Assembly: GCF_030812255.1 (NCBI RefSeq)
Contig: NZ_JAUSSH010000006.1
Coordinates: 124,001-188,000, forward strand
Direction: 5' to 3'
Length of the DNA: 64,000 nt
From: Paeniglutamicibacter psychrophenolicus
GTDB lineage: Bacteria; Actinomycetota; Actinomycetes; Actinomycetales; Micrococcaceae
Shown here: positions 4,697-21,939 of the stretch, in pieces
How the letters are laid out: every line of letters begins with the position of its first letter
Position numbering within the stretch: the first letter of the stretch is position 1
Notes under the pieces: generated by a model
What the model was told of the DNA's origin: nothing
Databases searched by the model: none
What the model saw: only the letters and a program-made list of their open reading frames with translations
Made by a program: the position numbers and the translations under genes

Positions 4697-6109
4697 CTAT
4701 AGCCGCTTGGGTGGCCACTGGGGGCCTGATCCATTTATCTGGGCAGGTGCCATCGAGATGTAGGTGTGGCTGCTGGGCGTGGTGATCTCGAAGGCATGCC
4801 GGCCGGCGCCGGAAATCGGGGATTCCGTCCAGCCTGGCGCTTCCTTGGTCATATTGCAGCGTTTGCAGCGCCCCGATGAATTTTCTTCGGTGGTTTTCCC
4901 GTCACGGCTCACCTGGACCACGTGGTCAAGTTCCTGGATTCTGCCGTTGCAAAAGGGGGTCCGGCAATATTGGTCACGGACCTTGATGAATTTCTTGAGC
5001 TGCCCGGTGAAGAGCCGCCCGGTGGATTCCATGGCCACCAATTTCCCGGTCTCCGGGGCCACATATAGGTTCCGAAGCCAGGTGTCCAATGGATTTTCCG
5101 GGCTCCCTGCCAACAGTTCGAGGCCCTTGGCTGCACTGAGGAAACCATGGCCGGGAACCAGCACCGGGTGCTGGGCATCTTCGGTCAGGTTCTCGGCATT
5201 CATCACCAGCAGGAGTTCGACAGGAACACTGTCTCCCGCCTTGGTGCCCGTTACCTTCTCAAATGCGGTGTCAGCGGCCACTTGGGCCCGGGACCGGTCG
5301 TCTTCCGCACTCCTGGGCTTGTCCACAGCGTTGCGTATAGCCTGCAACATCGGCAGGCCCTGCTCCAGGGGCAATCTGCCGCTGAATTTCACGGTGTAGT
5401 CATCAATTTGGTAGCCATCGAAGTAGCGGCGCTTGATGGCAAGATCCTCCAGATCCGCAGCAGCCTTGGGTTCCAGGGCCAGCGCCCAGCAATGGATCCG
5501 GTCCCGCAACATGGCGGTTCCAGCCTCGAAGCAGGATTGCTGCCCGTTCCACAGCAGCGCATCAATCAGCTGCCGGTTTTCGACCCGCAGGTCACGCACG
5601 CCAGAAACCACCACCAGGGCTTGCTCGAACGTGATCAGTCCGGATCGCATGCCCCGGAGGGTGCTGGGCAGATCTTCGGCCAGGAGCCGCGAGTTGTTCA
5701 TGAAGCTGGCCCCGCTGTCCGGGGAAACATGCAAAGCCAGGGCCACTTCACCGCGGGTTCCCCATGCGGGGTTGTCCTTCCGCGTCCCTGTTTCCACGCG
5801 CTTGGCGATCACCGTATCCTCGAAGGCCACCGCTTGCGCTACTTGCTTCGCCCATGTGGCCGCCTTCAGGGCCTCCAAAGCCCCCAAGGACTCAATCGCC
5901 TGGTGAGTTCCCTCGTGCAGCGGGGCAGCGTTCACGGCCGAGGCCACGCAGCGGATCCCGTCAATGCCGGTGCGTGTCACGTGCTCGGCGACCATCGCAT
6001 CCAGGTCAACTCCCGCAAGCACCAGCGCATCATAAGTGGGGGCTTGTCCTGCGGTCGACATCACGTTCCCATGAAGCGGGTTGCTGCTGCTCGATGACTC
6101 CGATGCCAT
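4697..6109 (-). CDS. DUF222 domain and HNH endonuclease-type protein
   Basis: 470 residues. The N-terminal 300 or so residues resemble the DUF222 (13E12-like) domain common in multicopy actinobacterial proteins. The C-terminus carries an HNH nuclease module: CRTPFCNGRIQELDHVVQ, then ENSSGRCKRCNMTKEAPGW, with two Cys pairs able to bind zinc and the Asp-His of the catalytic strand. DNA cleavage is expected from the fold, but the biological role of this family is unknown. Start uncertain: ATG at 6109 lies only 6 nt downstream of a TATAAT at 6116-6121, which would give a leaderless or nearly leaderless message; ATG at 6061 is an alternative. The flanking DNA upstream is AT-rich compared with the rest. 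Confidence 0.85.
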   Translation of the reverse strand: MASESSSSSNPLHGNVMSTAGQAPTYDALVLAGVDLDAMVAEHVTRTGIDGIRCVASAVNAAPLHEGTHQAIESLGALEALKAATWAKQVAQAVAFEDTVIAKRVETGTRKDNPAWGTRGEVALALHVSPDSGASFMNNSRLLAEDLPSTLRGMRSGLITFEQALVVVSGVRDLRVENRQLIDALLWNGQQSCFEAGTAMLRDRIHCWALALEPKAAADLEDLAIKRRYFDGYQIDDYTVKFSGRLPLEQGLPMLQAIRNAVDKPRSAEDDRSRAQVAADTAFEKVTGTKAGDSVPVELLLVMNAENLTEDAQHPVLVPGHGFLSAAKGLELLAGSPENPLDTWLRNLYVAPETGKLVAMESTGRLFTGQLKKFIKVRDQYCRTPFCNGRIQELDHVVQVSRDGKTTEENSSGRCKRCNMTKEAPGWTESPISGAGRHAFEITTPSSHTYISMAPAQINGSGPQWPPKRL

Positions 6110-6591: not shown

Positions 6592-7776
6592 CTACGACCA
6601 ACCCACCACCAATCGTGCCGCCTGGACGGGAATGGTGGGGTCCACTCCGGTTAGTTGGGCGAAGCGTTTGAGTCGGTTCATCAAGGTGTTGCGGTGGCAG
6701 TACAACTGTTCGGCGGCATGTGCAATGCTCCCGGTTTGCAGGTAGGCCTGAACCGCTTCGCCCAATCGACGACGCTCGGTCGCGCCGCAGTGGTCCAGCG
6801 CGCGCTCCACCTCGCCCAGCCCCGGAGCGCCCGCCCGTTCCAGCTCTCGCCGGGCCATGCGGGCCCATCCCCGGGCCCACGTCATTGCGCCTTCTTCCGC
6901 CGGTTCCAGCAGCCTTGCCAACGCGGCGGCCACGGCGGCGGCGTGCGGAACCTGCTCCAACAGGCAGCCCTCCCCTATCAAGCCGCAGGAGAGTCGCCCA
7001 AGGCTCTCGTTGAGCCGCTGGGCCTCCGAGCCGGCACGCTCCTCGAGTGGATAAAAAACCACAAGTGCATCAGCCATGGAATAGGTGAACACCTGGTTGC
7101 TCGCCTGCGCATTGGCCAACGCAAGGCGCAGTGCAGGGATATGGTCCCACGGCGCGACCGCGACCACATATTTGGTGCCGGGGTCCTGGCCGAGTTCCTC
7201 TGCTATCCGGTCCAACGCGGAAGGCGCCAATTTTTTCTCGCTAAAGAGCGTGGCCAGGTAGCCCTGCCTCTTGCTTGCGGCCTCCGCCTGGATCCTGGCC
7301 AGCTCGGCGACATAGGCCCTCTGGGTTTCCCCCGCGTAGCCGTCTACGACCTCCCAGACGCGGGCGGTGTGCTCGACCAGCAATTGTGCGTCCGCGGGCG
7401 CGGCAATGGCGGTGATGGCTTCCCAGATCACCGAGAAGTCCAAGCGGATTGCGGTCATCAGCGCCTCAATGGGCACTCCCGCCCGTGCCCTGGAGACTCC
7501 CACATCCAGCGCGATGGCATCGCGTTCACGCAGGTAGCCCGGTTCGTCGTCATCCGCCTTCATGGCCAGGATCAGGGCCTTGAACGACGCGCTGCCGGTG
7601 CGCCTGATCTCACTGATCGGCAACGGTGATTGGGCGTAGATCGAAATGGTGCCCAGACGAGCAATGAATTCGTCGGTCAGCTTCCCAACGTCCAACCCAT
7701 CCAGCAGGGCGCTCCAGCGCCCTGAATCGCCTGGTTGGCCGTTTTGCTCGCTTTCGGTGCCTTGGTTCAGTGCCAT
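6592..7776 (-). CDS. PucR-type transcriptional regulator (CdaR-like)
   Basis: 394 residues. The C-terminus is the PucR-family helix-turn-helix: AVQAYLQTGSIAHAAEQLY, then CHRNTLMNRLKRFAQLTGVD. The middle resembles the GGDEF-derived CdaR domain, and the N-terminal 180 or so residues are helical and probably sense the inducer. Members control purine, sugar-acid or amino-acid catabolic genes as activators. It is divergent from the transporter gene at 7939 across about 160 bp, so it most likely controls the operon 7939-14005. Its stop codon abuts a pseudogene fragment. ATG at 7776 fits the family length. Confidence 0.88.
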   Translation of the reverse strand: MALNQGTESEQNGQPGDSGRWSALLDGLDVGKLTDEFIARLGTISIYAQSPLPISEIRRTGSASFKALILAMKADDDEPGYLRERDAIALDVGVSRARAGVPIEALMTAIRLDFSVIWEAITAIAAPADAQLLVEHTARVWEVVDGYAGETQRAYVAELARIQAEAASKRQGYLATLFSEKKLAPSALDRIAEELGQDPGTKYVVAVAPWDHIPALRLALANAQASNQVFTYSMADALVVFYPLEERAGSEAQRLNESLGRLSCGLIGEGCLLEQVPHAAAVAAALARLLEPAEEGAMTWARGWARMARRELERAGAPGLGEVERALDHCGATERRRLGEAVQAYLQTGSIAHAAEQLYCHRNTLMNRLKRFAQLTGVDPTIPVQAARLVVGWS

Positions 7777-7938
7777 TCGATCATATTATGTGCTTTTGCA
7801 CCGTTTGTGGCGTGGAACTCGTTGTGAATCGTGCGGCGCATCACGGTGGATCCTTGGCAAGATAAACATCGTCCCCACAAACCGGATGGCTTGCAGCAAC
7901 GCACCGGGCCTCCCCTTGAGATCAGGCAGAAAAATCCC

Positions 7939-9261
7939 ATGACCCACACTGGAACACTCGAAGCGGGTGCAACACGGCAGATCTCCGACAAGGAGGCCAC
8001 CAAGGTTGCCATTGGCGCCCTCATTGGCACCGCCATGGAGTGGTACGACTTCTTCCTCTTCAGCGCCGCCGCCGCGCTGGTATTCAACATCCAGTTCTTC
8101 GACAGCCAGAACGCCACGGCTGCCGCCATGGCAGCCTTCGCCACCTTCGGAGTGGGGCTCGTGGCCCGCCCCATCGGCGGAATGATCTTCGGGGTGATGG
8201 GCGACAAGATCGGACGCCGCAAGACGCTCATGGTGACCATCGTCGGCATCGGCGTGATCACCGGCCTGATCGGTTTGCTGCCGACCTACGCGGCCATCGG
8301 GATTGCCGCGCCGATCCTGCTGGTTCTGCTGCGCATCGCCCAGGGCCTGTTCGTGGGCGGCGAATGGTCCGGAGCCATGACCATCGTGGTGGAAAACGCG
8401 CCGCTGCACCGTCGTGCCCGTTACGCGGCACTGCCGCAGATCGGCTCGCCCATTGGCACGATCCTCTCCTCGGGAGGCTTCTTCCTGATGACCGTGTTCC
8501 TGTCCCAGGAGAGCTTTGACGCCTGGGGCTGGCGCATCCCGTTCCTGGCCGCGATTCCGATGCTGCTCGTGGCACTGTACATCCGCAGCCGCCTCGACGA
8601 GTCCCCCGTGTTCAAGGAATTGATGGAGAAGGGCGAGACCGAAAAGGCCCCGATCCGCACCACGCTCAAGGAATCCTGGAAGCACATCATCATCGGCATG
8701 GCTGCCGGCATGCTCGGCATCGGCGGTTTCTACCTGGTCACCGCGTTCGTGGTCTGGTACGGCGTCAATGTGCTGGAATACGAGCGCTCCCTCATGCTGC
8801 TGGGCGGCATCATTGCCGCCGTGGTGGAAATCCCGGTATTGATCCTTGGCGGCCGCCTCGGCGAGCGCTTCGGCTCCTCCAAGGTCATCACCTACGGCGG
8901 AATCTTCTCCGCGATCATCGCCTGGCCCGCCTTCCTGCTCATCGATTCGGGCAACGACGTGCTGGTCATCGCCGGCATGACCCTGGCCGTCGCGGCGCTC
9001 TCGCTGCCCTACGCCGCCTCCGGCACGGTGCTGACCGGGCTGTTCCCGGCGAAGACCCGCTACACCGGCGTCGGATTCGCGCAGAACACCGCCGGCATGA
9101 TCTCCGGGTTCATCCCACTGGCCGCCACCGCCCTGGTCGCCGCCGCGTCCAACCACTGGTGGCCCGCCGCCGCCATGCTCATCTTCCTCTCGCTGTTCAC
9201 CGCGGTTGCGGGCGTCATCGCCCCTCGTCTCAGCGTCGACCTGCCCGGCTTCAAGCACTAG
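7939..9261 (+). CDS. MHS-family (metabolite:H+ symporter) MFS transporter
   Basis: 440 residues with about 12 hydrophobic segments. The opening AIGALIGTAMEWYDFFLF and the loop RPIGGMIFGVMGDKIGRRKT are hallmarks of the MHS family (ShiA, ProP and KgtP relatives), which import carboxylates, betaines or amino-acid-like compounds with protons. FVGGEWSGAMTIVVE in helix 4-5 also fits. The frame is open to 7831, but the ATG at 7939 is where family similarity starts, and AGGCAGA lies upstream. It is first in a set of four same-strand genes behind a divergent PucR-type regulator. It probably brings in the substrate of the downstream enzymes, which cannot be named from sequence. Confidence 0.9.
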   Translation: MTHTGTLEAGATRQISDKEATKVAIGALIGTAMEWYDFFLFSAAAALVFNIQFFDSQNATAAAMAAFATFGVGLVARPIGGMIFGVMGDKIGRRKTLMVTIVGIGVITGLIGLLPTYAAIGIAAPILLVLLRIAQGLFVGGEWSGAMTIVVENAPLHRRARYAALPQIGSPIGTILSSGGFFLMTVFLSQESFDAWGWRIPFLAAIPMLLVALYIRSRLDESPVFKELMEKGETEKAPIRTTLKESWKHIIIGMAAGMLGIGGFYLVTAFVVWYGVNVLEYERSLMLLGGIIAAVVEIPVLILGGRLGERFGSSKVITYGGIFSAIIAWPAFLLIDSGNDVLVIAGMTLAVAALSLPYAASGTVLTGLFPAKTRYTGVGFAQNTAGMISGFIPLAATALVAAASNHWWPAAAMLIFLSLFTAVAGVIAPRLSVDLPGFKH

Positions 9262-9268
9262 CGACCCT

Positions 9269-9312
9269 CCGGTGTGCACCGCAGGGGCCCCAAATCCTGC
9301 GGTTCACACCGG
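9269..9312 (+). terminator. Long hairpin between the transporter and the ThDP-enzyme gene
   Basis: Two 17-nt arms (9269-9285 and 9296-9312) pair with a single mismatch around a 10-nt loop, starting 8 nt after the transporter stop codon. A T-rich stretch (9321-9332) follows after a gap of about 8 nt. It may be a partial terminator or an RNA-stability element that sets different levels for transporter and enzymes. Confidence 0.65.
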
Positions 9313-9361
9313 ACCCCACAGTCTTCTTTTTACGCTCCACAACAAAGGACCACGACCGCTC

Positions 9362-11017
9362 ATGACCCTGTCAGCCGGCCACCTCATCGTCAAGACCCTC
9401 GAAGCCCACGGCGTGGAGCGCATCTATGCGGTTCCGGGTGAAAGCTACCTCGATGTGCTCGACGGGCTTCACGATTCCCCGATCCACACCGTCGTCACCC
9501 GCCACGAGGGCGGTGCCGGCTTCATGGCCCTGGCAGAGGGCCGGCTCGGCGAGACTCCCGGCATTGCCATGGTCACCCGGGGCCCCGGTGCCGCGAACGC
9601 CATGATCGCGATCCACACCGCCTGGCAGGACGCCACCGCGATGGTGCTGTTCGTCGGGCTGATTCCGCTGGCGGACCGCGGACGGGACTCCTTCCAGGAG
9701 TTCAGCCTGGAGGGTTGGTTCTCCACCACCGCCAAGGCGGTCTTTGTGCTCGATGACGAGCACCAGGCCGGCGACGTGGTGGCACGGGCCATGCGCCTGG
9801 CCTCCACCGGACGCCCCGGACCGGTCGTGGTCGGACTGCCCGAGGACGTCCTGGTCCGCATGACCTCCTCCCCCGTGCCCGCGGTGCTTCCGTTGCCCGA
9901 GGCCGCACCAAGTGCAGCGGGCCTCGACTCGCTGTCCGACCTGCTCGGCCGGGCGATGCGGCCGGCGATCATTGTGGGCGGGGACGGCTGGGATCCGGCC
10001 ACCTCGGCAAGGCTTGCCGATTTCGCCGAGGCCGCCCACGTGCCGGTGCTGGCCGACTGGCGCGCCTATGACGCGATCGACCACGACTCCCCGGCCTACG
10101 CGGGCTGGCTGGGCTATGGCCGGGCCGAACGCACCGTGCAGGCGCTGAACGATGCCGACCTGTTGGTCTTCATCGGCTGCACCCGCGGCGATGTGCTCTC
10201 CGAGGGCTACCAGGCCGCGCTGGACACCCCGACCATCGTGGTGTCCCCCGACGCCGAGCTGACGGGCCACGCCGGACGCATCGACGCGCACCTGGGCATC
10301 GGCCCGGCGCAATTCGTTTCAGCCCTTCCCTCCGGCGACTCGCTGCGCGGCACGCGCGGCCCGCAGTGGATGGAGAAGCTGCGCGCAGAACAGCTGGACT
10401 TCATTGTCCCCGGAGCCGACGGCGGCACCGGCGTGGACCTGGGCATCGCCTTCGAATCCCTCGAGGCCGCCCTGGACCAGGACCGCATCATCACCTACGG
10501 CGCTGGCAACGCAACCCTGTGGGGCCACCGCTATCTGTCCCACCACGGTCCGAAATCGCTGGTGGGACCGCGCAACGGCGCCATGGGGCTCTCCGTTCCG
10601 GCCGCCGTGGCGGCAAGCATCATGCACCCGGGCCGCCACGTCGTGGCCGTCTGCGGGGACGGGGACTTCTTCATGAACGCCCAGGAACTTGCCGTCTCCT
10701 TCGCCCACGGCGGCACCCCGCTGGTCGTCGTGGCGGACAACGGGATCTTCGGCACCATCGTGGACCACCAGCGCCGGCACTACCCGCAGCGCCCCTCGGG
10801 CACGTCGATGGAAAACCCGAACTTCGCCCAGTGGATCAAGTCCTTCGGCGGGCACGGCGAATTCGTCGCCACCACCGCGGAGTTTGCCCCGGCACTCGAA
10901 CGCGCCCTGGCCAGCGGCCTGCCGGCGGTGCTGCACCTGAAGACCGACCCGGCCACCATGGGCCCGGGCACCGTCGCGCACCGATCCGTGGCAAGCGGTG
11001 CGGAGGCCCACGCATGA
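9362..11017 (+). CDS. Thiamine-diphosphate-dependent enzyme (acetolactate synthase/decarboxylase superfamily)
   Basis: 551 residues with the three domains of this superfamily. The N-terminal pyrimidine-binding domain has YAVPGESYLDVLDGL and RHEGGAGFMA, whose Glu activates the cofactor. The C-terminal domain has the Mg-ThDP motif starting CGDGDFFMNAQELA and closing with VVVADNGIFGTI. Because the catalytic Glu is present it is not a canonical glyoxylate carboligase, which lacks it. Candidates are a 2-oxoacid decarboxylase or carboligase; the reaction cannot be fixed from sequence. The ATG at 9362 follows a long open upstream frame without homology. Its stop overlaps the next start (ATGA), so it is translationally coupled to the amidohydrolase and likely acts in the same pathway. 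Confidence 0.88.
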   Translation: MTLSAGHLIVKTLEAHGVERIYAVPGESYLDVLDGLHDSPIHTVVTRHEGGAGFMALAEGRLGETPGIAMVTRGPGAANAMIAIHTAWQDATAMVLFVGLIPLADRGRDSFQEFSLEGWFSTTAKAVFVLDDEHQAGDVVARAMRLASTGRPGPVVVGLPEDVLVRMTSSPVPAVLPLPEAAPSAAGLDSLSDLLGRAMRPAIIVGGDGWDPATSARLADFAEAAHVPVLADWRAYDAIDHDSPAYAGWLGYGRAERTVQALNDADLLVFIGCTRGDVLSEGYQAALDTPTIVVSPDAELTGHAGRIDAHLGIGPAQFVSALPSGDSLRGTRGPQWMEKLRAEQLDFIVPGADGGTGVDLGIAFESLEAALDQDRIITYGAGNATLWGHRYLSHHGPKSLVGPRNGAMGLSVPAAVAASIMHPGRHVVAVCGDGDFFMNAQELAVSFAHGGTPLVVVADNGIFGTIVDHQRRHYPQRPSGTSMENPNFAQWIKSFGGHGEFVATTAEFAPALERALASGLPAVLHLKTDPATMGPGTVAHRSVASGAEAHA

Positions 11018-12681
11018 GGCTCGATCTGCTGGTGCGCGCCGGCACCATCCTGACCATGGACGAGGCGCGCCCCACGGCCCGCGAGATGGGGATCATCGGC
11101 GGGCGCATCGTGGGGTTCGACGAGGACCTGGCCGGATGCAGCGCGGACCGCACCGAGGACTTCGGCGAGGCGACCATCACCCCCGGCTTCATCGACGCGC
11201 ACTGCCACACCACCTGGTGGGGGCTGGGGCTCGCCGCCCTGGATCTCTCGGAGGCACGCGGGCTGGAGGAGCTCTACGCCCTGCTCGAGGCCGAGATGGA
11301 TCGGCTGGCCGCCACCCCCGGCGTGTGGCTCAACGGCACCGGCTTCAACCACAAGAACCACGGCGGCCACTTCCCCGACATCGTACGGCTCGATGCGATC
11401 ACCGGGGACCGCCCGCTGTACCTGCGCCACGTCTCGGGGCACGCCTCGATCACCAACACCGCCACCCTCGCCCTGGCCGGGGCCCTGGAACCGGGCTTCG
11501 CCGATCCCGTGGGCGGCGCCGTGGTGCGCGACGCGCACGGATCGCCCACCGGGCTGGTCGAGGAAGCGGCCCAGGGCATCATCCAGAAGATGCTCCTGCC
11601 CTACTCCGCGGAGCAGATCGTCGGTGCCCTGGACGCCGCGACCGCCCGTTACGCCGCCGAGGGCATCACCTCCTTCACCGAGGCCGGCGTCGGCGGCGGC
11701 TGGATCGGCCACTCCCCCGTCGAGGTCACCGCCTACCAAGGGGCGCTGGCCGCCGGGAAGCTGCACGCCCGCGCCCAGCTGATGCCGACACTCGACGCGC
11801 TGCGCGAGCAGGAATCCCATGCCTCCGACGCCCACGGCAGCGGAACCGGGCTGGGGCTGGACCTGGGCATCACGGCCGGGTTCGGCAACGAGCACCTCTC
11901 GCTGGGCCCGGTCAAGGTGTTCATGGACGGCTCGCTGCTGGGTGCCACCGCCGCGGTGACCGAGGACTATTGCGGACACCTGCACAACAGCGGCTACCTG
12001 CTCGACGACGCCCAGGCATACCGGGAACGGGTCGCGGCCGCCTACCGCTCCGGCTGGCCCGTGGCGCTGCACGCCATCGGGGATGCGGCCATCGACCTGG
12101 CGATCGAGATCATCTCCGGGCTGCAGGAGAAGCACGGCCGCAATGCGCTGCCCAACCGCATCGAGCACTTCGGCATCGCCCGCCCCGACCAGGTCGCGGC
12201 CGTGGCCAGGCACGGCATCGCGGTGACCCCGCAGGCATCCTTCATCGGCCCGCTGGGCGACCAGTTCGCCACGCTCGTCGGTCCCGAGCGCGAGGGCTGG
12301 CTCTACCGCGGCCAATCGCTGCTGGCCGCCGGGGTCCTGGCCGCCGGCAGCTCGGACTTGCCGGTTGCCGACAACAACGTGCGCCGCGCCATGGCCTCGG
12401 CCGTGGACCGCCGGACCGAAAACGGGAAGGTGCTCGGCGGAGCGGCCGAGTGCCTGAGCCCGTTGGAGGCGCTGCGGCTCTACACCGTCAATGCCGCCAA
12501 GGCCACCGGCCTGTTCGCCGACCGCGGGTCCCTGGCCCGCGGCAAGCTCGCGGACTTCACGGTGCTTTCCGCCTCCCCGCTGCACGCCGCGGACATTGCC
12601 GCGCTCGAAATCCTGGGCACCTTCGTCGGCGGAAAGTCCAGCTACACACGCTCCGCCGCCGCAGTTCCCGCCACCGCCTGA
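11014..12681 (+). CDS. YtcJ-like amidohydrolase (Amidohydro_3 type)
   Basis: 555 residues. Metal-site motifs of the amidohydrolase superfamily are visible: PGFIDAHCHTTWW (HxH), VALHAIGDAAIDLAIE (third His) and SSDLPVADNNV near the C-terminus, the arrangement typical of YtcJ/NfdA-type enzymes, which cleave C-N bonds in N-substituted formamides, amides or cyclic imides. The final 60 residues form the small beta domain around ARGKLADFTVLS. The ATG at 11014 overlaps the stop of the thiamine-enzyme gene by 4 nt. With the downstream M20 enzyme it suggests stepwise hydrolysis of a nitrogen-containing compound (inference). Confidence 0.88.
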   Translation: MRLDLLVRAGTILTMDEARPTAREMGIIGGRIVGFDEDLAGCSADRTEDFGEATITPGFIDAHCHTTWWGLGLAALDLSEARGLEELYALLEAEMDRLAATPGVWLNGTGFNHKNHGGHFPDIVRLDAITGDRPLYLRHVSGHASITNTATLALAGALEPGFADPVGGAVVRDAHGSPTGLVEEAAQGIIQKMLLPYSAEQIVGALDAATARYAAEGITSFTEAGVGGGWIGHSPVEVTAYQGALAAGKLHARAQLMPTLDALREQESHASDAHGSGTGLGLDLGITAGFGNEHLSLGPVKVFMDGSLLGATAAVTEDYCGHLHNSGYLLDDAQAYRERVAAAYRSGWPVALHAIGDAAIDLAIEIISGLQEKHGRNALPNRIEHFGIARPDQVAAVARHGIAVTPQASFIGPLGDQFATLVGPEREGWLYRGQSLLAAGVLAAGSSDLPVADNNVRRAMASAVDRRTENGKVLGGAAECLSPLEALRLYTVNAAKATGLFADRGSLARGKLADFTVLSASPLHAADIAALEILGTFVGGKSSYTRSAAAVPATA

Positions 12682-12712
12682 TCCCCGCCCCCACCACCTT
12701 GCAGGAGAGACC

Positions 12713-14005
12713 ATGACCCCGACCAACAATCCGTTCCTTGCCGACTTCACCTCGATGAGCAGCCACGGCGCCACCGCCGGCGGCGGCGTGGACCGCCAGG
12801 CCGCCACCGTGGCCGACGGGCAGACCCGCAACTGGTTCCGCGGACTGGTCGAGGGCCACGGCTTCACCGTGCGCTACGACGCGGTCGGCAACCAATACGC
12901 GATGCTCGAGCTGGTTCCCGGCGCCCCGTGGATCGCGGTGGGATCACACCTGGATTCCCAGCCGCTGGGCGGCCGCTTCGACGGGGCCTACGGCGTGCTG
13001 GCCGGGGCGCACGCGGCCAAGCGCGTGCAGGAATCCCTCGCCGGCACCGAGGGCACCGCATTGTTCAACATCGTGGTCATCAACTGGTTCAACGAGGAGG
13101 GCTGCAGGTTCAAGCCCTCAATGATGGGCAGCTCCGTCTACACCGGCAAGCTGCCGGCCAACCAGGTGCTGGAAACCACCGACCCGGCCGGCACCACGGT
13201 GCGCGAGGCGCTCGAGGCCATCGGGACCATCGGCGACTTCGAGCTGCCCGTGGCCGCCTACGTGGAGATCCACATCGAGCAGGGCCGCTCCCTGGAGGAC
13301 CGGGGGCTGTCCATCGGCCTGGTCGAGTCGACCTGGGGCGCGAACAAGTACGAGTTCACGGTCCACGGGGACCAGGCGCACACCGGCGCCACGGTCATCG
13401 CCGACCGCCGGGACGCGCTGCTGGGCGCCTCCGCACTGGTGGTGGCCGCCCGCGAGATCGCCCTGGAGCACTCCACCAAGGAGCACATGGTCATCACCTC
13501 CTGCGGCGAGTTCACCGTCTTCCCGAACTCCCCCGTGGTGGTGGCCAGCCGCGTGAACCTGCTGGTGGACGTGCGCTCCACCGACCCCGACGTGCTGGCC
13601 GCCGCGGATGCCGACCTGCACGCCCGCATCGCGAAGATCGAGCAGCTGGCCAACGTGCGGATCGAGCGCGGCAAGGAGCACGTCTGGGGCGCCAAGGCCT
13701 ACGATGCGGCCGGGCTCGAGCTGGCGGCGCGGGCCGCCGCGTCGCTGGGCCTGAGCCACGGGGTGGTGCGCACCCTGGCGGGCCACGACTCGACGAACAT
13801 GAAGGACATTGTCCCGACCATCATGCTCTTCGTGCCCAGCGTCGAGGGCATCAGCCACAACGAACGCGAGCTGACCAGTGACGCGGACATGCTCAAAGGT
13901 GTGGACCTGCTCACCGAGGTGCTGGCGCGCGTGGTGCGCGGCGAGTTCATCTCACCCTCCGGGGTGGTGGAGGAACCCGCCGGGGATTCTTCCCTCGTTT
14001 CCTAG
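12713..14005 (+). CDS. Zn-dependent hydrolase, N-carbamoyl-L-amino acid hydrolase/allantoate amidohydrolase type (M20)
   Basis: 430 residues. Metal and substrate residues of the HyuC/AllC group are present: VGSHLDSQPLGGRFDGAYG, WFNEEGCRFKPSMMGS, then EIHIEQGRSLED and AGHDSTNMKDIVPT followed by SVEGISHNERE. These enzymes remove a carbamoyl or amide group from carbamoyl amino acids, allantoate or ureidoglycine. GGAGAGACC precedes the ATG at good spacing. It is the last gene of the apparent operon that begins at 7939. It converges on the NmrA-like gene, and the stop codons of both share one CTAG at 14002-14005. Substrate not assignable from sequence. Confidence 0.9.
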   Translation: MTPTNNPFLADFTSMSSHGATAGGGVDRQAATVADGQTRNWFRGLVEGHGFTVRYDAVGNQYAMLELVPGAPWIAVGSHLDSQPLGGRFDGAYGVLAGAHAAKRVQESLAGTEGTALFNIVVINWFNEEGCRFKPSMMGSSVYTGKLPANQVLETTDPAGTTVREALEAIGTIGDFELPVAAYVEIHIEQGRSLEDRGLSIGLVESTWGANKYEFTVHGDQAHTGATVIADRRDALLGASALVVAAREIALEHSTKEHMVITSCGEFTVFPNSPVVVASRVNLLVDVRSTDPDVLAAADADLHARIAKIEQLANVRIERGKEHVWGAKAYDAAGLELAARAAASLGLSHGVVRTLAGHDSTNMKDIVPTIMLFVPSVEGISHNERELTSDADMLKGVDLLTEVLARVVRGEFISPSGVVEEPAGDSSLVS

Positions 14006-14985: not shown

Positions 14986-15366
14986 ATGAAAGAGTTGAAC
15001 CACAGCGCCGTATATGTCGAGGCAACACGGACGAACATCCACGACATCGTCCGCACCCTGGTCGATGCCATCGGCGCCCCCGCGGTGCAGCAGCTGGCCG
15101 GCACCCAGGACGCCACCGCACCGCACCGCTGGGCCCACCCGGACAGCACGGAACCGGACACCATGACGGAGCAGCGGCTGCGCCTGGGCTACCGGGTCTG
15201 GCTGACCCTGCAGTCGCTGGAGGACCCGCAGGCGGCCGTGAACTGGCTGATGTCCCCGAACCGGGCGCTGGACGAGGAGCGGCCCATGGATTTCATTGCG
15301 CGCCTGCATGCCCAGCAGGTCGTGAACACCGCCGAGTCGCTGGTCACCCACGAGGATCGCCGCTAG
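14986..15366 (+). CDS. Small protein resembling a Xre/MbcA/ParS-type antitoxin toxin-binding domain
   Basis: 126 residues. The C-terminal half (WLTLQSLEDPQAAVNWLMSP, then NRALDEERPMDFIARLHAQQ and VVNTAESL) has the layout of the MbcA/ParS/Xre C-terminal domain: a helix, a Trp-Leu-x-x-Pro-Asn turn, Pro-hydrophobic-Asp, and a final helix with a conserved Val. In toxin-antitoxin loci that domain binds a RES-fold NAD-degrading toxin, but no RES gene is next to it here. The N-terminal 60 residues could be a degenerate helix-turn-helix. It is convergent with nanE, sharing a CTAG double stop at 15363-15366. The assignment is by pattern only. Confidence 0.6.
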   Translation: MKELNHSAVYVEATRTNIHDIVRTLVDAIGAPAVQQLAGTQDATAPHRWAHPDSTEPDTMTEQRLRLGYRVWLTLQSLEDPQAAVNWLMSPNRALDEERPMDFIARLHAQQVVNTAESLVTHEDRR

Positions 15367-16046
15367 CGCAGCGCGGCGTCGAACCAGCCGGTGATGGTTG
15401 CCGGGTGGGTGATCGCGGTGCCGACGACCACGGCAAACGCCCCGGCGTCCAGGGCAGCGCGGGCCTGGGCCGGGGTGTGGATGCGGCCCTCGGCGACCAG
15501 TGGCACCGACAGGCCCGCGGCGGCGATCGCCTCCAGCAGTTCCAGGTCCGGGCCCTGGGTCTTGGGCCGTTCCCCGGAATAGCCCGCCAGCGTGGTCCCG
15601 ACCAGGTCCGCCCCGGCCTCGGCCGCGGCCAATGCGTCTTCCAGCGACCCGCAGTCCGCCATGACCAGGGCGTGGGACTCGGCGTGGACCAGCTCGATGG
15701 TCTGCTGCAGCGACAATCCGTCCGGGCGCCCGCGCCGGGTGCCGTCCAGGGCGACGATGTGCGCCCCGGCGTGGGCCACGGCCAGCGCGTGGCGCGCGGT
15801 CGGGGTGATGAAGACGCCCTCGTGTCCGTCCTTCCACAGCCCGATCACCGGGACCTCCACGGTGCTGCGGGTGAATTGCACATCCGCGATGCCCTGGACG
15901 CGGATGGCAGCGGCTCCCCCGATGACGGCGGAGGCGGCGACCTGCGCCATCGTGGTGGGGGTGCGCATGGGTTCGCCCGGGTAGGCCTGTGCGGAGACGA
16001 TCAGGCGCCCGCGCAGGGCCTCGAGTTCGGCGGGGGTCAAGAGCAT
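15363..16046 (-). CDS. nanE: N-acetylmannosamine-6-phosphate 2-epimerase
   Basis: 227 residues, the family length. It converts N-acetylmannosamine-6-phosphate to N-acetylglucosamine-6-phosphate in sialic acid catabolism. It is a TIM barrel with the NanE signatures RLIVSAQAYPGEPM near the start, IGLWKDGHEGVFITPT, IVALDGTRRGRPDG, MADCGSLEDALAA and GADLVGTTLAGYSGE. The frame is open far upstream, but the ATG at 16046 carries GAAGGAAC at the right distance. It overlaps the end of the ROK kinase gene by 10 nt, so the two are coupled. Last gene of the sialic acid operon. Confidence 0.93.
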   Translation of the reverse strand: MLLTPAELEALRGRLIVSAQAYPGEPMRTPTTMAQVAASAVIGGAAAIRVQGIADVQFTRSTVEVPVIGLWKDGHEGVFITPTARHALAVAHAGAHIVALDGTRRGRPDGLSLQQTIELVHAESHALVMADCGSLEDALAAAEAGADLVGTTLAGYSGERPKTQGPDLELLEAIAAAGLSVPLVAEGRIHTPAQARAALDAGAFAVVVGTAITHPATITGWFDAALR

Positions 16047-17026
16047 GGAAGTTCCTTCGAATCGGTCGGGGCCAGGAAGAGGCCGGCGGCGCCGATCAGC
16101 GCCGCGTTGTTGCCCAGGGCCGCGGGAAGCAGTTCCAGGTGCGCCAGCGGGTCGATGGCCTCGGCGGCGAAGCCCTCCCGCACACCATCCCACCACAGGG
16201 TTCCGGCCCCGCTCATGCCCCCGGAGAGCACGATGGCCTCCGGGTCCAGGATGTTGGCCAGCGAACCGGCGGCGATCCCGGCGGCCAGCGCCCCGGTGCG
16301 CAGCGCCTGGCGGGCCAACGCATCCCCCGCATAGGCGCGGGCGGTCAGTTCGCGGGTGTCGGGAACGGACGGATCCCCGCCCAGGCGCAGGTAGTTGCGG
16401 TGGATGCCGGGGCCCGCGGCGATGGCCTCGAGGTGGCCGGTGCGCCCGCAGGAGCATGGCAGGGACGTGGCCAGCGGGGAGGCGAAGTGCCCCATGTGCC
16501 CGCCGACGTGGTGCGCGCCGGTCTGCGGCACCCCGTGCAGCAGGTGCGAGCCGCCCACCCCGGTGCCCACGGCCAGCAGCAGCACGTTGGCCCGGCCCGC
16601 GGCGGCGCCGCACCAGGCCTCGCCCAGGCCGTGGGCGTGCACGTCGTTGACCGCGCGCACGGGCAGGTTGGTGCGGGTGTACAGCTCGGCGGCCAGGTCG
16701 GTGCCGGCCCAGCGGGCAATGGTGTCGGTGGCCGAGAGCACCCGGGCGGTTCCCGGGTCGATGACCCCGGCCGCGCCCAGGCCCAGGCCGATCAGGTGCA
16801 GGTTCGCCGCGGCTTCGGTGGCCGAGAGCCCGGCCACCAGCGAGGCCACGGCGTCGAGCACTGCGCGGGCGCCGGCGGTGGCGGGGGTCGGGACCGAGGC
16901 GGCGGCCAGGACGGTGCCGGCGGCGTCAACCAGGCCGGCGGCGATCTTGGTGCCGCCCAGGTCGATGCCGAACGCGGCGGTGCGCCCCGGATTCCCGGGG
17001 CGCACCAGTGCTGTTGCGTTGACCAT
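16037..17026 (-). CDS. nanK: ROK-family kinase, probable N-acetylmannosamine kinase
   Basis: 329 residues. The ATP-binding motif AFGIDLGGTKIAAGLVD and the second sugar-kinase motif VLSGGMSGAGTLWWDGV identify a ROK kinase; AVNDVHAHGLGEA carries the catalytic Asp. The position between the aldolase and nanE indicates phosphorylation of N-acetylmannosamine with ATP. The zinc motif reads CSCGRTGHLEA: the usual third cysteine of CxCGxxGCxE is His here, while GGHMGHF supplies histidines upstream, so zinc may be held differently. It lies 6 bp after the aldolase gene and overlaps nanE. Confidence 0.87.
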   Translation of the reverse strand: MVNATALVRPGNPGRTAAFGIDLGGTKIAAGLVDAAGTVLAAASVPTPATAGARAVLDAVASLVAGLSATEAAANLHLIGLGLGAAGVIDPGTARVLSATDTIARWAGTDLAAELYTRTNLPVRAVNDVHAHGLGEAWCGAAAGRANVLLLAVGTGVGGSHLLHGVPQTGAHHVGGHMGHFASPLATSLPCSCGRTGHLEAIAAGPGIHRNYLRLGGDPSVPDTRELTARAYAGDALARQALRTGALAAGIAAGSLANILDPEAIVLSGGMSGAGTLWWDGVREGFAAEAIDPLAHLELLPAALGNNAALIGAAGLFLAPTDSKELPCS

Positions 17027-17032
17027 GGACGC

Positions 17033-17965
17033 CTAGAGCAGGCCGGTCTCGGCGAGGATCGCGGTGATCGCGGCGGCCTCGGAGTCGTTCAGGTCCACCA
17101 TCGGAACGCTCATCTTGTTGCAGCCGATGACGCCCTGGGCGACCAGTGCGGTCTTGAACGCGCCCAGGCCCGCGGCGCCGCCGGAGACGCGTGCCGAGTC
17201 CGGGGTGTAGACGATGTCGAAGACGCGGGCCAGCCGGTCCTGTTCCTTGGCTGCGGTGGCGAAGTCGCCGGCGACCGCGGCGTCGAAGAGGCGGCGGTAG
17301 CCGGCCGGATCGACGTTGCCCAGGCCCGGGACCACGCCGTGGGCGCCGCCCAGCAGCGCACCGTCGACGACGACCTCGTGGCCGGTGAACACGGAGAAGC
17401 CCTCGATGTCCTTGGTGGCCAGCAGCAGCTGGCGGAAGGACACGTCGTCGCCCGAGGAATCCTTGACCCCGACGATGACCCCGTCGGTGGCCAGCGCCAC
17501 CGCGGTGGCCACCGACAGCTTGACGTGGGTGCGCACCGGCACGTCGTAGGCGAAGATGTCCACGCCCAGCGCGGCGTGGATGGCGCGGAAGTGCGCCTCG
17601 ACCTCGGCGGCGTTGGACAGCGCGTAGTACGGGGTGGTGACGACCAGGGCGTCGGCGCCGAGGTCGACCATCTTGCGGCCTTCCTCGATGACGCGGTTGG
17701 TGGTCTGCTCGTTGGCGCCCACGACCAGCGGGACGCGTCCGGCGTTGGCGGCGGCGATGGTGGTGACCACGAGCTCGCGCTCGGTGTTGGTCAGGTACGG
17801 GACCTCGCCGGAGGAACCGAGCACGAACAGGCCGGTGACTCCTCCGGAAATGAGGTGTTCGACGACGGCCTGCAGGCCCGCCACATCGATGGCCCCCTCC
17901 GCGGTGCGCGGGGTCACGACCGGGGGGATGACGCCGGAGTACTTGGGGTTGTTAGCGAATGCCAC
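17033..17965 (-). CDS. nanA: Dihydrodipicolinate synthase/N-acetylneuraminate lyase family aldolase
   Basis: 310 residues. A class I aldolase barrel with GLFVLGSSGEVPYLT (2-oxoacid carboxylate site), the catalytic Tyr in DIFAYDVPVRT and the Schiff-base Lys in VGVKDSSGDD. On its own the sequence could be a lyase for several 2-oxo sugar acids; the neighbours NanK and NanE and the ABC transporter make N-acetylneuraminate (or a close nonulosonate) the best substrate, giving N-acetylmannosamine and pyruvate. GTG start at 17965 with only a weak GAAAG upstream. A GC-rich hairpin separates it from the ABC genes. Confidence 0.82.
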   Translation of the reverse strand: MAFANNPKYSGVIPPVVTPRTAEGAIDVAGLQAVVEHLISGGVTGLFVLGSSGEVPYLTNTERELVVTTIAAANAGRVPLVVGANEQTTNRVIEEGRKMVDLGADALVVTTPYYALSNAAEVEAHFRAIHAALGVDIFAYDVPVRTHVKLSVATAVALATDGVIVGVKDSSGDDVSFRQLLLATKDIEGFSVFTGHEVVVDGALLGGAHGVVPGLGNVDPAGYRRLFDAAVAGDFATAAKEQDRLARVFDIVYTPDSARVSGGAAGLGAFKTALVAQGVIGCNKMSVPMVDLNDSEAAAITAILAETGLL

Positions 17966-18057: not shown

Positions 18058-18864
18058 CTAGAGCTGCAGCAGCGTGGGTGCCGCGCCGAGCAGCGTGCGG
18101 GTGTACGGGTCGGTCGGGTTCTCGAAGACCTGTGCTGCGGTGCCGGATTCGACGATCTTGCCCGCGTTCATCACGCAGATCCGGTCCGAGATGTAGCGCA
18201 CGGTCTGGATGTCGTGGGAGATGAACACCATGCCGAGGTTCAGCGTGGCCTTCAGGTCGGTGAGCAGGTTCAGCACCTGGGCGCGCACCGAGACATCCAG
18301 CGCGCTGGTCGGCTCGTCGGCGACGATGATATCCGGGTCCAGGGCCAGGGCGCGGGCGATGGCCACGCGCTGGCGCTGCCCGCCGGAGACCTGGTTGGGC
18401 ATCGCGGAGGCCGCCGAGGCCGGCAGCCCGACCACCGAGAGCAGGTCCGCGACCTTGGCCGCGCGGCTGGCGGGGGTGCCGATGCCGTGGATCTTCAGCG
18501 GGTCGGTGAGGATGTCGGAAATGCTCATGCGCGGGTTCAGCGCGGTGGAGGGGTCCTGGAAGACCACGGCCACCGAGCGGCCGAATTCCTTGCGGCCGGC
18601 CGCATTGCGCTTGGAGGCGTCCTTGCCGCGGAAGAGCACCTGGCCGCTGGTCGGTTCCTGCAGGCCCACCAGCACCGAGGCGAGGGTGGACTTGCCGCAG
18701 CCGGATTCGCCGACGATGCCCACGGTTTCCCCGCGCGAGACGGAGAAGTCGACCCCGTTGACCGCCCGGACGATGTTCGGGGAGAAGAGCTTGCCGCCGC
18801 GGGCCCGGTGCTGCACGTGGATGTCGCGCAGCTGAACGACGGGGGTGGTGGATGCGTTGCTCAT
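18058..18864 (-). CDS. ABC transporter ATP-binding protein (OppF/DppF type) of the sialic acid locus
   Basis: 268 residues. Walker A is GIVGESGCGKSTLASVLVG, the signature is QVSGGQRQRVAIARALA and Walker B is PDIIVADEPTSALDVS, followed by the switch His in FISHDIQTVR. The C-terminal ENPTDPYTRTLLGA is the short OppF-type tail. It is the second ATPase of the importer; the first is fused to a permease in the gene just upstream, whose stop overlaps this start by 4 nt (ATGA). The start at 18864 is the overlap ATG, although the frame is open further upstream. Confidence 0.92.
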   Translation of the reverse strand: MSNASTTPVVQLRDIHVQHRARGGKLFSPNIVRAVNGVDFSVSRGETVGIVGESGCGKSTLASVLVGLQEPTSGQVLFRGKDASKRNAAGRKEFGRSVAVVFQDPSTALNPRMSISDILTDPLKIHGIGTPASRAAKVADLLSVVGLPASAASAMPNQVSGGQRQRVAIARALALDPDIIVADEPTSALDVSVRAQVLNLLTDLKATLNLGMVFISHDIQTVRYISDRICVMNAGKIVESGTAAQVFENPTDPYTRTLLGAAPTLLQL

Positions 18865-20870
18865 CGCGAGACTCCTGGGGAAACTGGTTCGTGGCTGGCC
18901 CAGAAGTGTTCCGGGTGCCCCCCGGCCGGCACGAAGTCGGTGGGACGGTTCGGATCCGCCGCGGCCCGCTGGGAGCGTTCGGCGAACCGGTCCCCGGCCG
19001 CGAACGAGTACGGGGAGGGCACCGTGCCGGGGATCTGGTGCAGGCGCGTGGCGCCGGATTCGATCGAGAGCACCGCGCCGAGCAGGCCCTGGGTGTATTC
19101 GTGCGCCGGGGCGGCGAGCACCGCCGGGACCGGGCCGGATTCGACGACCTGGCCGGCGTACATCACCGTCACGCGGTGCGCCAGCGAGGCGACAAGTGCC
19201 AGGTCGTGGCTGACGAAGACCATCGCGAAGCCGAGGGTTTCGCGCAGTTCGTTGAGCAGGTCGACGACCTGCTTCTGGACCGTGACATCCAGCGCGGTGG
19301 TCGGCTCGTCGCAGACCACGAGCTTGGGCCTGCGGCTCAAGGCCATGGCGATGAGCACGCGTTGGCGCTGCCCGCCGGAAAGCTCGTGCGGGTAGGAGCG
19401 CAGCGTGCGCACCGGGTCGAGCTTGACCAGGCGCAGCAGTTCCTCGGGGCTGGTGCGCCCGCCGCGCTTGGTGAGCTGGCGCAGCTGGTCGCCGACCAGC
19501 ATCGAGGGGTTCAGCGAGGAGAGCGCATCCTGGTAGACCATCGCGATCTGCTCGCCGCGCAGGCCCTTGTAGACCTTGTCGTCCCCGGCGATGTGGTTTC
19601 CGTCGGGACCGACGGGCAGCAGTTCCTTGTCCCCGAACTTGATGGAGCCGGTGACCACGGCGGTGTCCGGCAGCAGGCCCATGATGGCCAGCGAGGTGAT
19701 CGACTTGCCGCAGCCCGATTCCCCGACCAGCGCCATGGTTTCGCCCTCGCGGACGGTGAAGGAGACGTTGTCCACGATCCGGGTCTCGCCGAAGCGGGCC
19801 GGGAAGCGGATCGAGAGGTCCCTCACCTCCAGGATGGTCTTCGGTTCCCCGGCCGGGGAATCGAGCACCAGGCGGTCGGTGCGTTTGGCCTCGGTGGCCG
19901 CGAGCAGCTCGAGCTCGGCGCGCAGGCGGGCCAGGGCGGCGGTGTCGACGGCCGGCTTGGCGGCCTTGGCCGCGGCCCGCTCCGAGGTGGAGGCCGACTT
20001 CCTGGTGGACTTGGGGTTCACCAGCGCGTCGGTCATGCCCTCGGCCAGGATGTTCAGCGCCAGCACCGTAAGCAGGATGGTGACGCCGGCGAAGGTGGTG
20101 GCCCACCAGGCGCCGTTGAGCACCAGGGTGCGGCCGTAGGAGATCACGTTGCCCCAGGACGGGGCGGGATCCTGGATGCCGGCACCCAGGAAGGAGAGCG
20201 AGGCCTCGAGGATGATGGCGTCGGCGACCATGATGGTGGCGAACACCAGCACCGGGGCGGCGCAGTTGCGCAGCACGTGGGTGCCCAGGATGTAGAAGCG
20301 GCCGGCGCCGATCACGCGTTCGGCACGCACGTAGTCCTCGCCCCATTGGGCCAGCACGTTGGCGCGGACCACGCGGGCGATCTGCGGGGTGTAGATGATC
20401 GCGATCGACAGGATGATCACCGGCAGCGAGTTGCCCAGCGAGGCCAGCAGCGCAGCGGCCAGTGCGATGCCCGGGAAGGCCATGAGCATGTCCATGATGC
20501 GCATGATGGTCTCGTTGGCCCATTTGGCGCTGGTGGCGGCAAGGGCGCCGAGCAGGCCGCCCATCACCAGGGCCAGGGCGACCGAGCCCAGGCCGACCAG
20601 CAGCGAGGCCTGGGCGCCGAAGAGCAGGCGCGAGAGGATGTCGCGGCCCAGCCGGTCGGTGCCGAAGGGGTTTTCGCCGCTGGGGCCCTGGGCGGGGATG
20701 CCGGAGGCGAGCGGGTCGTGCGGGGCCAGCACGGGTGCCAACAGCGCCGCGAGGGCGACCAGCACCAGGAAGGCCAGGGAAATCTTGGAGCCCAGCGGCA
20801 GCGCGGTGAAGCGCGTGCCGCCGGCGCTCAGGCTGGCAACAAGTCCGTTGCGGGGGGCGAGGAGAGCCAT
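18861..20870 (-). CDS. Fused ABC permease and ATP-binding protein (DppC-DppD type)
   Basis: 669 residues. Residues 1-280 or so are a DppC-like permease: N-terminal helix, then PFGTDRLGRDILSRLLFGAQ, about six membrane segments and the EAA loop region AERVIGAGRFYILGTHVL. A charged linker (STRKSASTSERAAAKAAK) joins it to a DppD-like ATPase with Walker A ALVGESGCGKSITSLAIMG, signature HELSGGQRQRVLIAMAL and Walker B KLVVCDEPTTALDV, plus VFVSHDLALV. Frame and linker are intact, so this is a true fusion, not a sequencing merge. Four-gene importers with such a fusion are known for sialic acid uptake in some bacteria, which fits the adjoining nan genes. The ATG at 20870 has GGAGAGCC before it. Confidence 0.92.
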   Translation of the reverse strand: MALLAPRNGLVASLSAGGTRFTALPLGSKISLAFLVLVALAALLAPVLAPHDPLASGIPAQGPSGENPFGTDRLGRDILSRLLFGAQASLLVGLGSVALALVMGGLLGALAATSAKWANETIMRIMDMLMAFPGIALAAALLASLGNSLPVIILSIAIIYTPQIARVVRANVLAQWGEDYVRAERVIGAGRFYILGTHVLRNCAAPVLVFATIMVADAIILEASLSFLGAGIQDPAPSWGNVISYGRTLVLNGAWWATTFAGVTILLTVLALNILAEGMTDALVNPKSTRKSASTSERAAAKAAKPAVDTAALARLRAELELLAATEAKRTDRLVLDSPAGEPKTILEVRDLSIRFPARFGETRIVDNVSFTVREGETMALVGESGCGKSITSLAIMGLLPDTAVVTGSIKFGDKELLPVGPDGNHIAGDDKVYKGLRGEQIAMVYQDALSSLNPSMLVGDQLRQLTKRGGRTSPEELLRLVKLDPVRTLRSYPHELSGGQRQRVLIAMALSRRPKLVVCDEPTTALDVTVQKQVVDLLNELRETLGFAMVFVSHDLALVASLAHRVTVMYAGQVVESGPVPAVLAAPAHEYTQGLLGAVLSIESGATRLHQIPGTVPSPYSFAAGDRFAERSQRAAADPNRPTDFVPAGGHPEHFWASHEPVSPGVSR

Positions 20871-20874
20871 GAAG

Positions 20875-21831
20875 TTACACCGTCCTGATGCGCGGGTTGA
20901 TGAGCAGGTAGAGCAGGTCCACGGCGATGTTGACCAGCACGAAGGTGACCGCAATGGCGAGCACCACGCCCTGGACCAGGTTCACGTCGGAATTGGTGAT
21001 GCCGTTCATGATCAGCTGGCCCATGCCGGGCAGCGAGAAGATCATTTCGATCACCACGGCGCCGCCGAGCAGGTACCCGATGCGCAGGCCCAACACGGTG
21101 ACCGGGGTGACCAGCGCGTTGCGCAGCACGTTGCGGGTCAGCACCTCGCCGCGCGGCACGCCGTTGCCGATGGCCGTGCGGACGTAGTCCTTGTCCAGTT
21201 CCTCGACCATCGAGGTGCGCACCACGCGGATCAGCGAGGCGGAGACCGGGATGGCCAGTGCGAGTGCGGGAAGGGTCATGTGGGCCAGCCAGCCGCCGAG
21301 CCCGGTGCCCGCGGCGGCCGCGCCGCCGGAGGGGAAGAGCGGGTTGGTGCCCAGGGCGAGCCACTGGATCAGCAGGATGCCCAGCCAGAAGGACGGGGTG
21401 GCGATCGCGGCAATCGAGAAGACGCGGACCAACTGGTCGGGCCAGCGGTCGCGGTAGAGGGCGCCGAGCACGCCGAAGACCAGGGAAAGAACCACGGCGA
21501 TCAGCACGCCGAAGAAGGTCAGCTGCAGGGTCAGCGGGAACGCGTTGGCGATCATTTCGCCGACCGGGCGGGCCGGCGGGGTGGTGGTGCCGAAGTCCAG
21601 GCGGATCAGCCGGGCCAGGAAGGAGACGTACTGGATGACCAGCGGGTCATTGAGCCCGCGCTCCTCGCGGTAGGCGTCCTTGGCCGCCGCGCTGGCGCCT
21701 TCGCCCAGGGCGGAGGTGGCCTCGTCACCGGGTGCAAGTTTAAGGATGATGAAGACCAGGAAGGTGACTCCCAGGATCATCAGGGGCAGGGCGGCGAGGC
21801 GGCGTAGCAGCAGCCGTAGGAGGGTTCCCAC
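20875..21831 (-). CDS. ABC transporter permease (OppB/DppB type)
   Basis: 318 residues with six predicted membrane helices. TLLRLLLRRLAALPLMILG opens the first helix, followed by the OppB-type ILKLAPGDEA loop, and the EAA motif region RTAIGNGVPRGEVLTRNVLR sits before the last helices. It pairs with the permease half of the fused protein to form the membrane channel. The GTG at 21831 has GGAG 7 nt upstream and is preferred to an earlier ATG. It ends 4 bp before the fusion gene. Confidence 0.9.
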   Translation of the reverse strand: MGTLLRLLLRRLAALPLMILGVTFLVFIILKLAPGDEATSALGEGASAAAKDAYREERGLNDPLVIQYVSFLARLIRLDFGTTTPPARPVGEMIANAFPLTLQLTFFGVLIAVVLSLVFGVLGALYRDRWPDQLVRVFSIAAIATPSFWLGILLIQWLALGTNPLFPSGGAAAAGTGLGGWLAHMTLPALALAIPVSASLIRVVRTSMVEELDKDYVRTAIGNGVPRGEVLTRNVLRNALVTPVTVLGLRIGYLLGGAVVIEMIFSLPGMGQLIMNGITNSDVNLVQGVVLAIAVTFVLVNIAVDLLYLLINPRIRTV

Positions 21832-21886
21832 GCAAGAACTCCGATGGGTAGGCAATAAGTTGGCAAGTGGTGTTGCAGGAGGGGTG

Positions 21887-21926: not shown

Positions 21927-21939
21927 GAACGTTCGAGGG

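Follow-up and report, generated by a model that had tools for sequence, protein, structure and literature searches.

Which compound might Paeniglutamicibacter psychrophenolicus be equipped to degrade by the gene cluster at positions 6592-14005 of the 64,000-nucleotide stretch analysed here (contig NZ_JAUSSH010000006.1, positions 124,001 to 188,000; hereafter the window), in which a PucR-type regulator is divergent from genes for an MHS-family importer, a thiamine-diphosphate (ThDP)-dependent enzyme, a YtcJ-like amidohydrolase and an M20 hydrolase? Our analysis confirmed the cluster as a real, conserved unit of known enzyme families; it is probably a dedicated catabolic operon, whose most likely role is the uptake of an organic acid containing nitrogen and its breakdown by two amide-cleaving enzymes and a decarboxylase. 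The combination of these families matched no described pathway in the open-access literature, which is weak evidence of absence as most subscription papers lie outside that scope, and 4-ureidobutyrate and related topics gave no bacterial pathway match there. All five genes of the original prediction were present, with limits refined to 6592-14005:

6592-7776, minus strand: PucR-type transcriptional regulator with a C-terminal HTH_30 domain (PF13556 match), divergent from the other genes
7789-7801, plus strand: operator-like palindrome TGTGCTTTTGCAC, between the regulator and importer starts
7939-9261, plus strand: MHS-family proton symporter, the importer (MFS_1; best model TIGR00883)
9362-11017, plus strand: ThDP-dependent enzyme, PRK08199-like, with Glu27 (TPP_enzyme N, M and C domains)
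11014-12681, plus strand: YtcJ-like metal-dependent amidohydrolase of the Amidohydro_3 family (PF07969)
12713-14005, plus strand: M20 hydrolase of the hydantoinase/carbamoylase family, with Val275 (TIGR01879, Peptidase_M20)

The four plus-strand genes are closely packed, with 100 bp between the MHS and ThDP genes, a 4 bp overlap of the ThDP and YtcJ genes, and 31 bp between the YtcJ and M20 genes. A promoter and terminator scan of the cluster gave no signal above shuffled sequences and no convincing terminator. Matches to the ThDP enzyme at E 1e-100 were found in 66 of 148 related genomes, many of them just a 46-47% paralogue; within the genus, an ortholog at 82-95% identity was present in 11 of 14 other genomes, the remaining three (G004, G006 and G012 in our numbering) having just the 46-47% paralogue. 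Of 27 loci retrieved for their ThDP relative of at least 50% identity (L037-L063), 20 carried all five genes together, namely L057, L060 and every one of the 18 loci in which that identity exceeds 61%; the YtcJ gene was missing in L055, L056, L058 and L059, and the M20 gene in L061, L062 and L063. The cluster is chromosomal in complete genomes, with one variant on a plasmid of Arthrobacter sp. StoSoilB13.

A search with the M20 profile at E 1e-130 in 396 genomes of the phylum returned just the host and G525, a threshold too strict to judge spread, and neighbourhoods were counted around the best 80 of 574 confirmed relatives from an M20 profile scan of genome contigs, with flanks of up to 10 kb and 40 control stretches out of 20 related genomes. 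Shared descent, flanks cut by contig ends and unmatched case and control genomes make the p-values only a guide. Near M20, a ThDP gene of either subfamily was found at 56 of 80 loci against 3 of 40 controls, YtcJ at 42 against 1, MHS at 63 against 1 and PucR at 64 against 0. An aldehyde dehydrogenase (ALDH) gene lay within 10 kb at 28 of 80 loci and 3 of 40 controls (p=0.0009), and RidA and RraA genes were near M20 at 25 and 24 loci, respectively, and at none of the controls. The families do co-occur, the point on which the original prediction had asked to be judged, and this supports its view of a single catabolic unit behind a divergent PucR-type regulator.

The regulator matched HTH_30 (PF13556) at 54 bits (cut-off 27). 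Its domain matches at E 0.001 did not include the PucR N-terminal domain PF07905; that domain was present in the regulator of L131. In relatives too, the PucR-type ortholog is divergent from the MHS gene, and an alignment of 17 regulator-importer intergenic stretches showed the palindrome to be almost invariant. TGTGCWTTTGCAC had a single match in the whole 4.57 Mb host genome, at 7789-7801, and exact matches were located between the PucR and MHS starts in 29 of 29 cases (fetched loci longer than 9 kb, window included), with at least 4 pairs each coming from a single genome. Of 66 PucR-like genes, 26 had the degenerate form GTGCN4GCAC no more than 260 bp away, where about 1 was expected from a background of 0.019 per stretch; it was missing near the other 40, including nine ALDH-type loci (L169, L171-L178). 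The palindrome at 7789-7801 is a likely candidate operator, through which the regulator would act on the operon.

For the importer, the MFS_1 match scored 96 bits and the best model was TIGR00883 for the MHS family (359 bits, yet below the cut-off of 443), with a shikimate transporter model at 296 bits, also below cut-off. These family models support a carboxylate-type importer, as had been proposed. On the StoSoilB13 plasmid (L036 4663-5950), the MHS gene matches as two pieces in different frames, a possible frameshift.

The ThDP enzyme carries TPP_enzyme N, M and C domains, and its best NCBIfam model was PRK08199, a family without an assigned reaction, at 535.8 bits, about 3 bits under the cut-off of 539; the sister-operon enzyme of L116 passed that model at 591 bits. 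Glyoxylate carboligase has Val in place of the catalytic Glu. The window enzyme has this residue, Glu27, as the original prediction had noted, and it was kept in all 52 aligned cluster relatives, so that a glyoxylate carboligase identity was ruled out. Membership of AruI (PRK07524, 5-guanidino-2-oxopentanoate decarboxylase) was rejected as well, based on a score of 163 bits against a cut-off of 500, the presence of Glu27, where five of five AruI-like enzymes carry Q, T or V, and a separate tree clade. In that tree, from which 15 loci were left out for thinning, 49 of 54 rows grouped with the window and the five AruI-like rows, two of them on long branches, fell apart from these with support of 100/100.

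A reading of the window enzyme as a 2-oxo-acid decarboxylase is favoured because an ALDH gene adjoins the ThDP gene in sister operons. Arthrobacter-type loci have the order ThDP-ALDH-YtcJ-M20, with an ALDH nearest to aminobutyraldehyde dehydrogenase PRK13473 (588 against a cut-off of 615); the ThDP and ALDH genes adjoin (gap below 300 bp) in 10 of the 80 M20 loci, and they are adjacent in further loci such as L036, L057, L061, L062, L115, L116, L140, L141 and L142. Among proteobacterial plasmid relatives of the ThDP enzyme the neighbours were varied, an ALDH gene adjoining in Azospirillum and lying one gene away in Paracoccus yeei; ALDH was not among the listed genes around the relatives in Sphingomonas and Comamonas plasmid stretches. 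The host also has a ThDP paralogue that stands alone (G000:C15, L064), whose neighbours were uninformative. Leucobacter sp. L43 (L210) has neighbouring MHS-ThDP-YtcJ and MHS-RidA-RraA-ThDP-M20 operons with sister ThDP copies.

The M20 enzyme exceeded the cut-off of the hydantoinase/carbamoylase model TIGR01879 (274 bits, cut-off 204) and scored 423.2 vs 424 bits with PRK09290.2-1. Family names of this kind, and the dihydropyrimidinase genes that adjoin M20 relatives in Williamsia, might point to an established pathway (allantoin, hydantoin or reductive pyrimidine), a reading that we consider highly improbable. Allantoate deiminase AllC (TIGR03176) was rejected as an identity at 182 bits, far below its cut-off of 598, and no allantoinase is among the five genes. 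Reductive pyrimidine catabolism (dihydropyrimidinase, beta-ureidopropionase, beta-alanine aminotransferase) resembles the setting of the same-clade Williamsia M20 genes; unlike it, the window has no dihydropyrimidinase, and the host genome has none above 32% identity, the best match being just 32%. The original claim that the cluster is none of these three pathways as such was thus upheld.

Of the M20 metal and catalytic residues, E128, E129, H187 and H382 were kept in all 88 relatives, as was the carboxylate-binding Arg, R288, and H79 and D90 in 87 of 88 with one gap. The family Asn of the PNSxN/SRNVIPG motif contacts substrate; at this position the window enzyme has Val275, and Val or Ile was found in 88 of 88 relatives, including all M20 enzymes from variant contexts, as opposed to Asn in each of the four outgroup enzymes and in all five PDB alignments listed among 18 matches. 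No relevant paper on the M20 substrate residues was found in the open-access literature. The AlphaFold2 model (predicted local distance difference test score, pLDDT, 86.7) was nearest to the solved chain 5i4m and had a template-modelling score of about 0.86 with 8c46, the N-carbamoyl-beta-alanine amidohydrolase RrCbAA. RrCbAA is reported to act on N-carbamoyl amino acids of the alpha, beta and gamma types, with Arg291, Glu131 and His385 named as ligand-binding (PMC10952681); from the motifs, the equivalents in the window enzyme would be R288, E128 and H382. The two enzymes share the family model, the fold, the metal and catalytic residues and the carboxylate Arg; they differ in that identity is 33% and that the window enzyme has Val275 for the family Asn.

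The Asn change in the substrate region might also mean that the M20 enzyme is of the aminoacylase type, acting on N-acyl and not N-carbamoyl compounds, with the operon degrading N-acyl amino acids. Acylases such as SgELA in the YtcJ family (PMC10699109) and an ArgE/DapE deacylase gene (PRK06837) near M20 at 7 of 80 loci against 0 of 40 controls, not significant alone, would agree with this. We nevertheless regard it as quite improbable, given that the best models and folds for M20 are all hydantoinase/carbamoylase and that a same-clade M20 lies within a dihydropyrimidinase cluster. That cluster, in Williamsia L216, L226 and L230, consists of an NCS2 permease, a dihydropyrimidinase, the M20 enzyme and a class III aminotransferase that is PRK06062-like, as judged from models applied to a single representative per family. 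Because this context has genes for making and for using a beta-ureido acid, we favoured, from neighbourhood, an M20 enzyme that hydrolyses ureido (or N-acyl) acids with the nitrogen outside the alpha position. One more M20 of this family, at 31% identity, is present in the host; on plasmids of Pantoea, Pseudomonas and Arthrobacter U41, the M20 relatives have another setting, with an amidase, kinases and a sodium symporter.

The YtcJ-like enzyme belongs to Amidohydro_3 (PF07969) at 245 bits against a cut-off of 30, and together with the M20 models this bears out the proposal of two different C-N hydrolases. Its residues H63, H65, H143, H353, H385 and D448 were invariant in 18 aligned relatives. 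Its nearest relative whose setting is known, an amidohydrolase encoded on p2MP, a plasmid of Arthrobacter sp. 68b, is 42.5% identical over 99% and has as neighbours a luciferase-like oxidoreductase, a flavin reductase, a succinate-semialdehyde dehydrogenase and RidA; we take it to be PyrC of pyridine degradation, cleaving a formamide. By analogy, this relative suggests that the YtcJ-like enzyme may cleave an N-acyl, formamide-like group rather than open a ring, the activity originally predicted. The two share the Amidohydro_3 family; unlike p2MP, the window has no pyridine monooxygenase or semialdehyde dehydrogenase. The formamide deformylase NfdA can be likened to the window enzyme through the Amidohydro_3 family. 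This family ranges over acylases, NfdA and bile-salt hydrolases (PMC13081902), and the metal-ligand pattern of H63, H65, H353, H385 and D448 agrees with that given for SgELA (PMC10699109). The AlphaFold2 model (pLDDT 87.2) was nearest in fold to 3igh, uncharacterised and 25% identical, with many amidohydrolases, imidazolonepropionases among them, as fold neighbours; fold searches with the YtcJ-like and M20 models gave no pointer to substrate. A Streptomyces YtcJ relative lies within a non-ribosomal peptide/polyketide cluster (L074 6971-8545).

Under another explanation, which follows the order first predicted and which we judge rather unlikely, the YtcJ-like enzyme opens a cyclic ureide or imide, M20 takes the carbamoyl group off an N-carbamoyl alpha-amino acid, a 2-oxo acid arises by transamination and the ThDP enzyme acts last. 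The YtcJ and M20 genes adjoin (gap below 300 bp) in 34 of the 80 loci, also without ThDP, as expected of consecutive steps, L-carbamoylases belong to the M20 family, and imidazolonepropionases are among the many fold neighbours of the YtcJ-like enzyme. Against it stand the p2MP relative, in a ring-cleavage setting where its role would be to cleave a formamide, the replaced Asn of the M20 clade and the beta/gamma-type neighbours of M20.

RidA and RraA would be better explained by an enamine intermediate, in a route where both hydrolases (YtcJ, M20) cleave enamines that derive from an N-heterocycle and carry an N-acyl or N-carbamoyl group, RidA hydrolyses the enamine to a carbonyl compound, and RraA and the ThDP enzyme act on the oxo acid. 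Their enrichment near M20, the operons with MHS-RidA-RraA-ThDP-M20 and in part ALDH in L189, L219 and L224, and the RidA gene near the p2MP amidohydrolase all speak for it. This route is unlikely in our view, as genes for RidA, RraA and an oxygenase are all missing from the operon in the window and the arginine-type and pyrimidine-type M20 neighbours yield saturated compounds.

Those arginine-type neighbours are found in L128, L131, L132, L200, L203 and L233, where a same-clade M20 is accompanied by dimethylargininase-like and AruI-type or AruI-like ThDP genes; a 2-hydroxyacid dehydrogenase is also present in L128, L132, L200, L203 and L233, with none labelled in L131. The ThDP enzyme of L132 passed the AruI cut-off (541 against 500), AruI was the best model for L131 at 448 and second best for L128 and L233, and an agmatinase-family gene follows M20 by 0.9 kb in L200. 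In the arginine transaminase pathway of Pseudomonas aeruginosa, AruI is the 2-ketoarginine decarboxylase, acting with KauB and GbuA. The window resembles that pathway in pairing a ThDP enzyme with a C-N hydrolase for a chain-shortened acid (decarboxylate, oxidise, cleave C-N), in the ALDH of sister operons and in the AruI-like genes beside same-clade M20 in L131 and L132; it differs in that its ThDP enzyme fails the AruI model, keeps Glu27 and lies in a separate clade, and in having neither a guanidinobutyrase nor an operon ALDH. Yet other M20 genes adjoin an amidase and an L-amino-acid oxidase/monooxygenase (in L228; L214 and L218 contain these families too).

Since the ALDH, AruI-like and monooxygenase/amidase contexts all imply shortening of the acid by decarboxylation, we placed M20 after that step. 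The scheme that we put forward tentatively, at somewhat below an even chance, is of a PucR-controlled operon of four genes for the uptake and degradation of a carboxylate that is N-acylated or N-carbamoylated (ureido), with decarboxylation before C-N hydrolysis; we infer its reactions, their order and the substrate class. The MHS symporter would take up this carboxylate, the ThDP enzyme would decarboxylate a 2-oxo acid to an aldehyde, and an ALDH, encoded in the operon of sister lineages and not here, would oxidise the aldehyde. M20 would then cleave a non-alpha ureido (or N-acyl) carboxylate to a beta- or gamma-amino acid, ammonia and CO2, and the YtcJ-like enzyme would strip an N-acyl (formyl-like) group. 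The order first predicted, of ring opening, carbamoyl removal and 2-oxo-acid conversion, was not supported, as the sister contexts argue at least as well for decarboxylation first.

Several points weigh against this scheme. The window operon has no ALDH or aminotransferase gene, and RidA and RraA are left unexplained. No ThDP gene lay within the flank in 24 of the 80 M20 loci, including L166, which keeps MHS, YtcJ and M20; in L117, L129, L130 and L133 a YtcJ-M20-MHS-PucR set is without ThDP, so the ThDP enzyme is not always needed. Just one of four scanned M20-neighbour ThDP enzymes, that of L132, passed the AruI cut-off, and dimethylargininase-like genes (3 of 80 loci against 0 of 40 controls), class III aminotransferases (4 against 0) and D-2-hydroxyacid dehydrogenases (9 against 2) were not significant alone, with p-values that overstate independence because the loci are related by descent. 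Elsewhere in the host are a PRK06062-type class III aminotransferase at 65% and ALDHs at up to 45% identity, and the later steps could therefore run from other loci. PRK06062-like aminotransferase genes are also found near YtcJ/M20 or YtcJ/ThDP genes in Brevibacterium-type loci (L118, L120, L124, L125, L147, L148).

Split glycine dehydrogenase genes GcvPA/GcvPB are divergent from the YtcJ relative in L061 (16036-19166) and L062 (1149-4213); they suggested glycine release, but 0 of 80 M20 loci have such genes. In the window, a sialic-acid-type set of NanE, ROK kinase and DHDPS/NanA-family genes (15363-17965) adjoins the cluster, as in just part of the relatives, and is followed by a dipeptide-type ATP-binding cassette transporter (18058-23553). 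A DUF222/HNH endonuclease gene (4697-6109) adjoins the regulator, and its homologs (40-48% identity) flank the cluster on either side in relatives, as if mobile. Also in the window, 126-2114 encodes a 662-residue protein with many short Gly/Ala/Leu repeats and no confident Pfam domain.

A broader reading, which we hold to be doubtful, is of a pathway, undescribed and widespread among actinobacteria, that acts on 2-oxo acids of the omega-ureido, guanidino or N-acyl type and in which decarboxylation comes first, the amine is freed last, and exchangeable first steps (a PRK08199-like ThDP enzyme with ALDH, an AruI-like ThDP enzyme with a deiminase, or an amino-acid monooxygenase with an amidase) feed one dedicated M20 clade; control would lie with a PucR-type regulator whose GTGC-N4-GCAC operator would be new. 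Were this true, the PRK08199 ThDP family would gain an assigned reaction, as would an M20 clade labelled allantoate amidohydrolase by annotation pipelines, and the uniqueness of the operator in the host genome makes the regulon and inducer directly testable. It would also explain the use of a nitrogenous acid class by Arthrobacter-like soil bacteria, Brevibacterium and Leucobacter.

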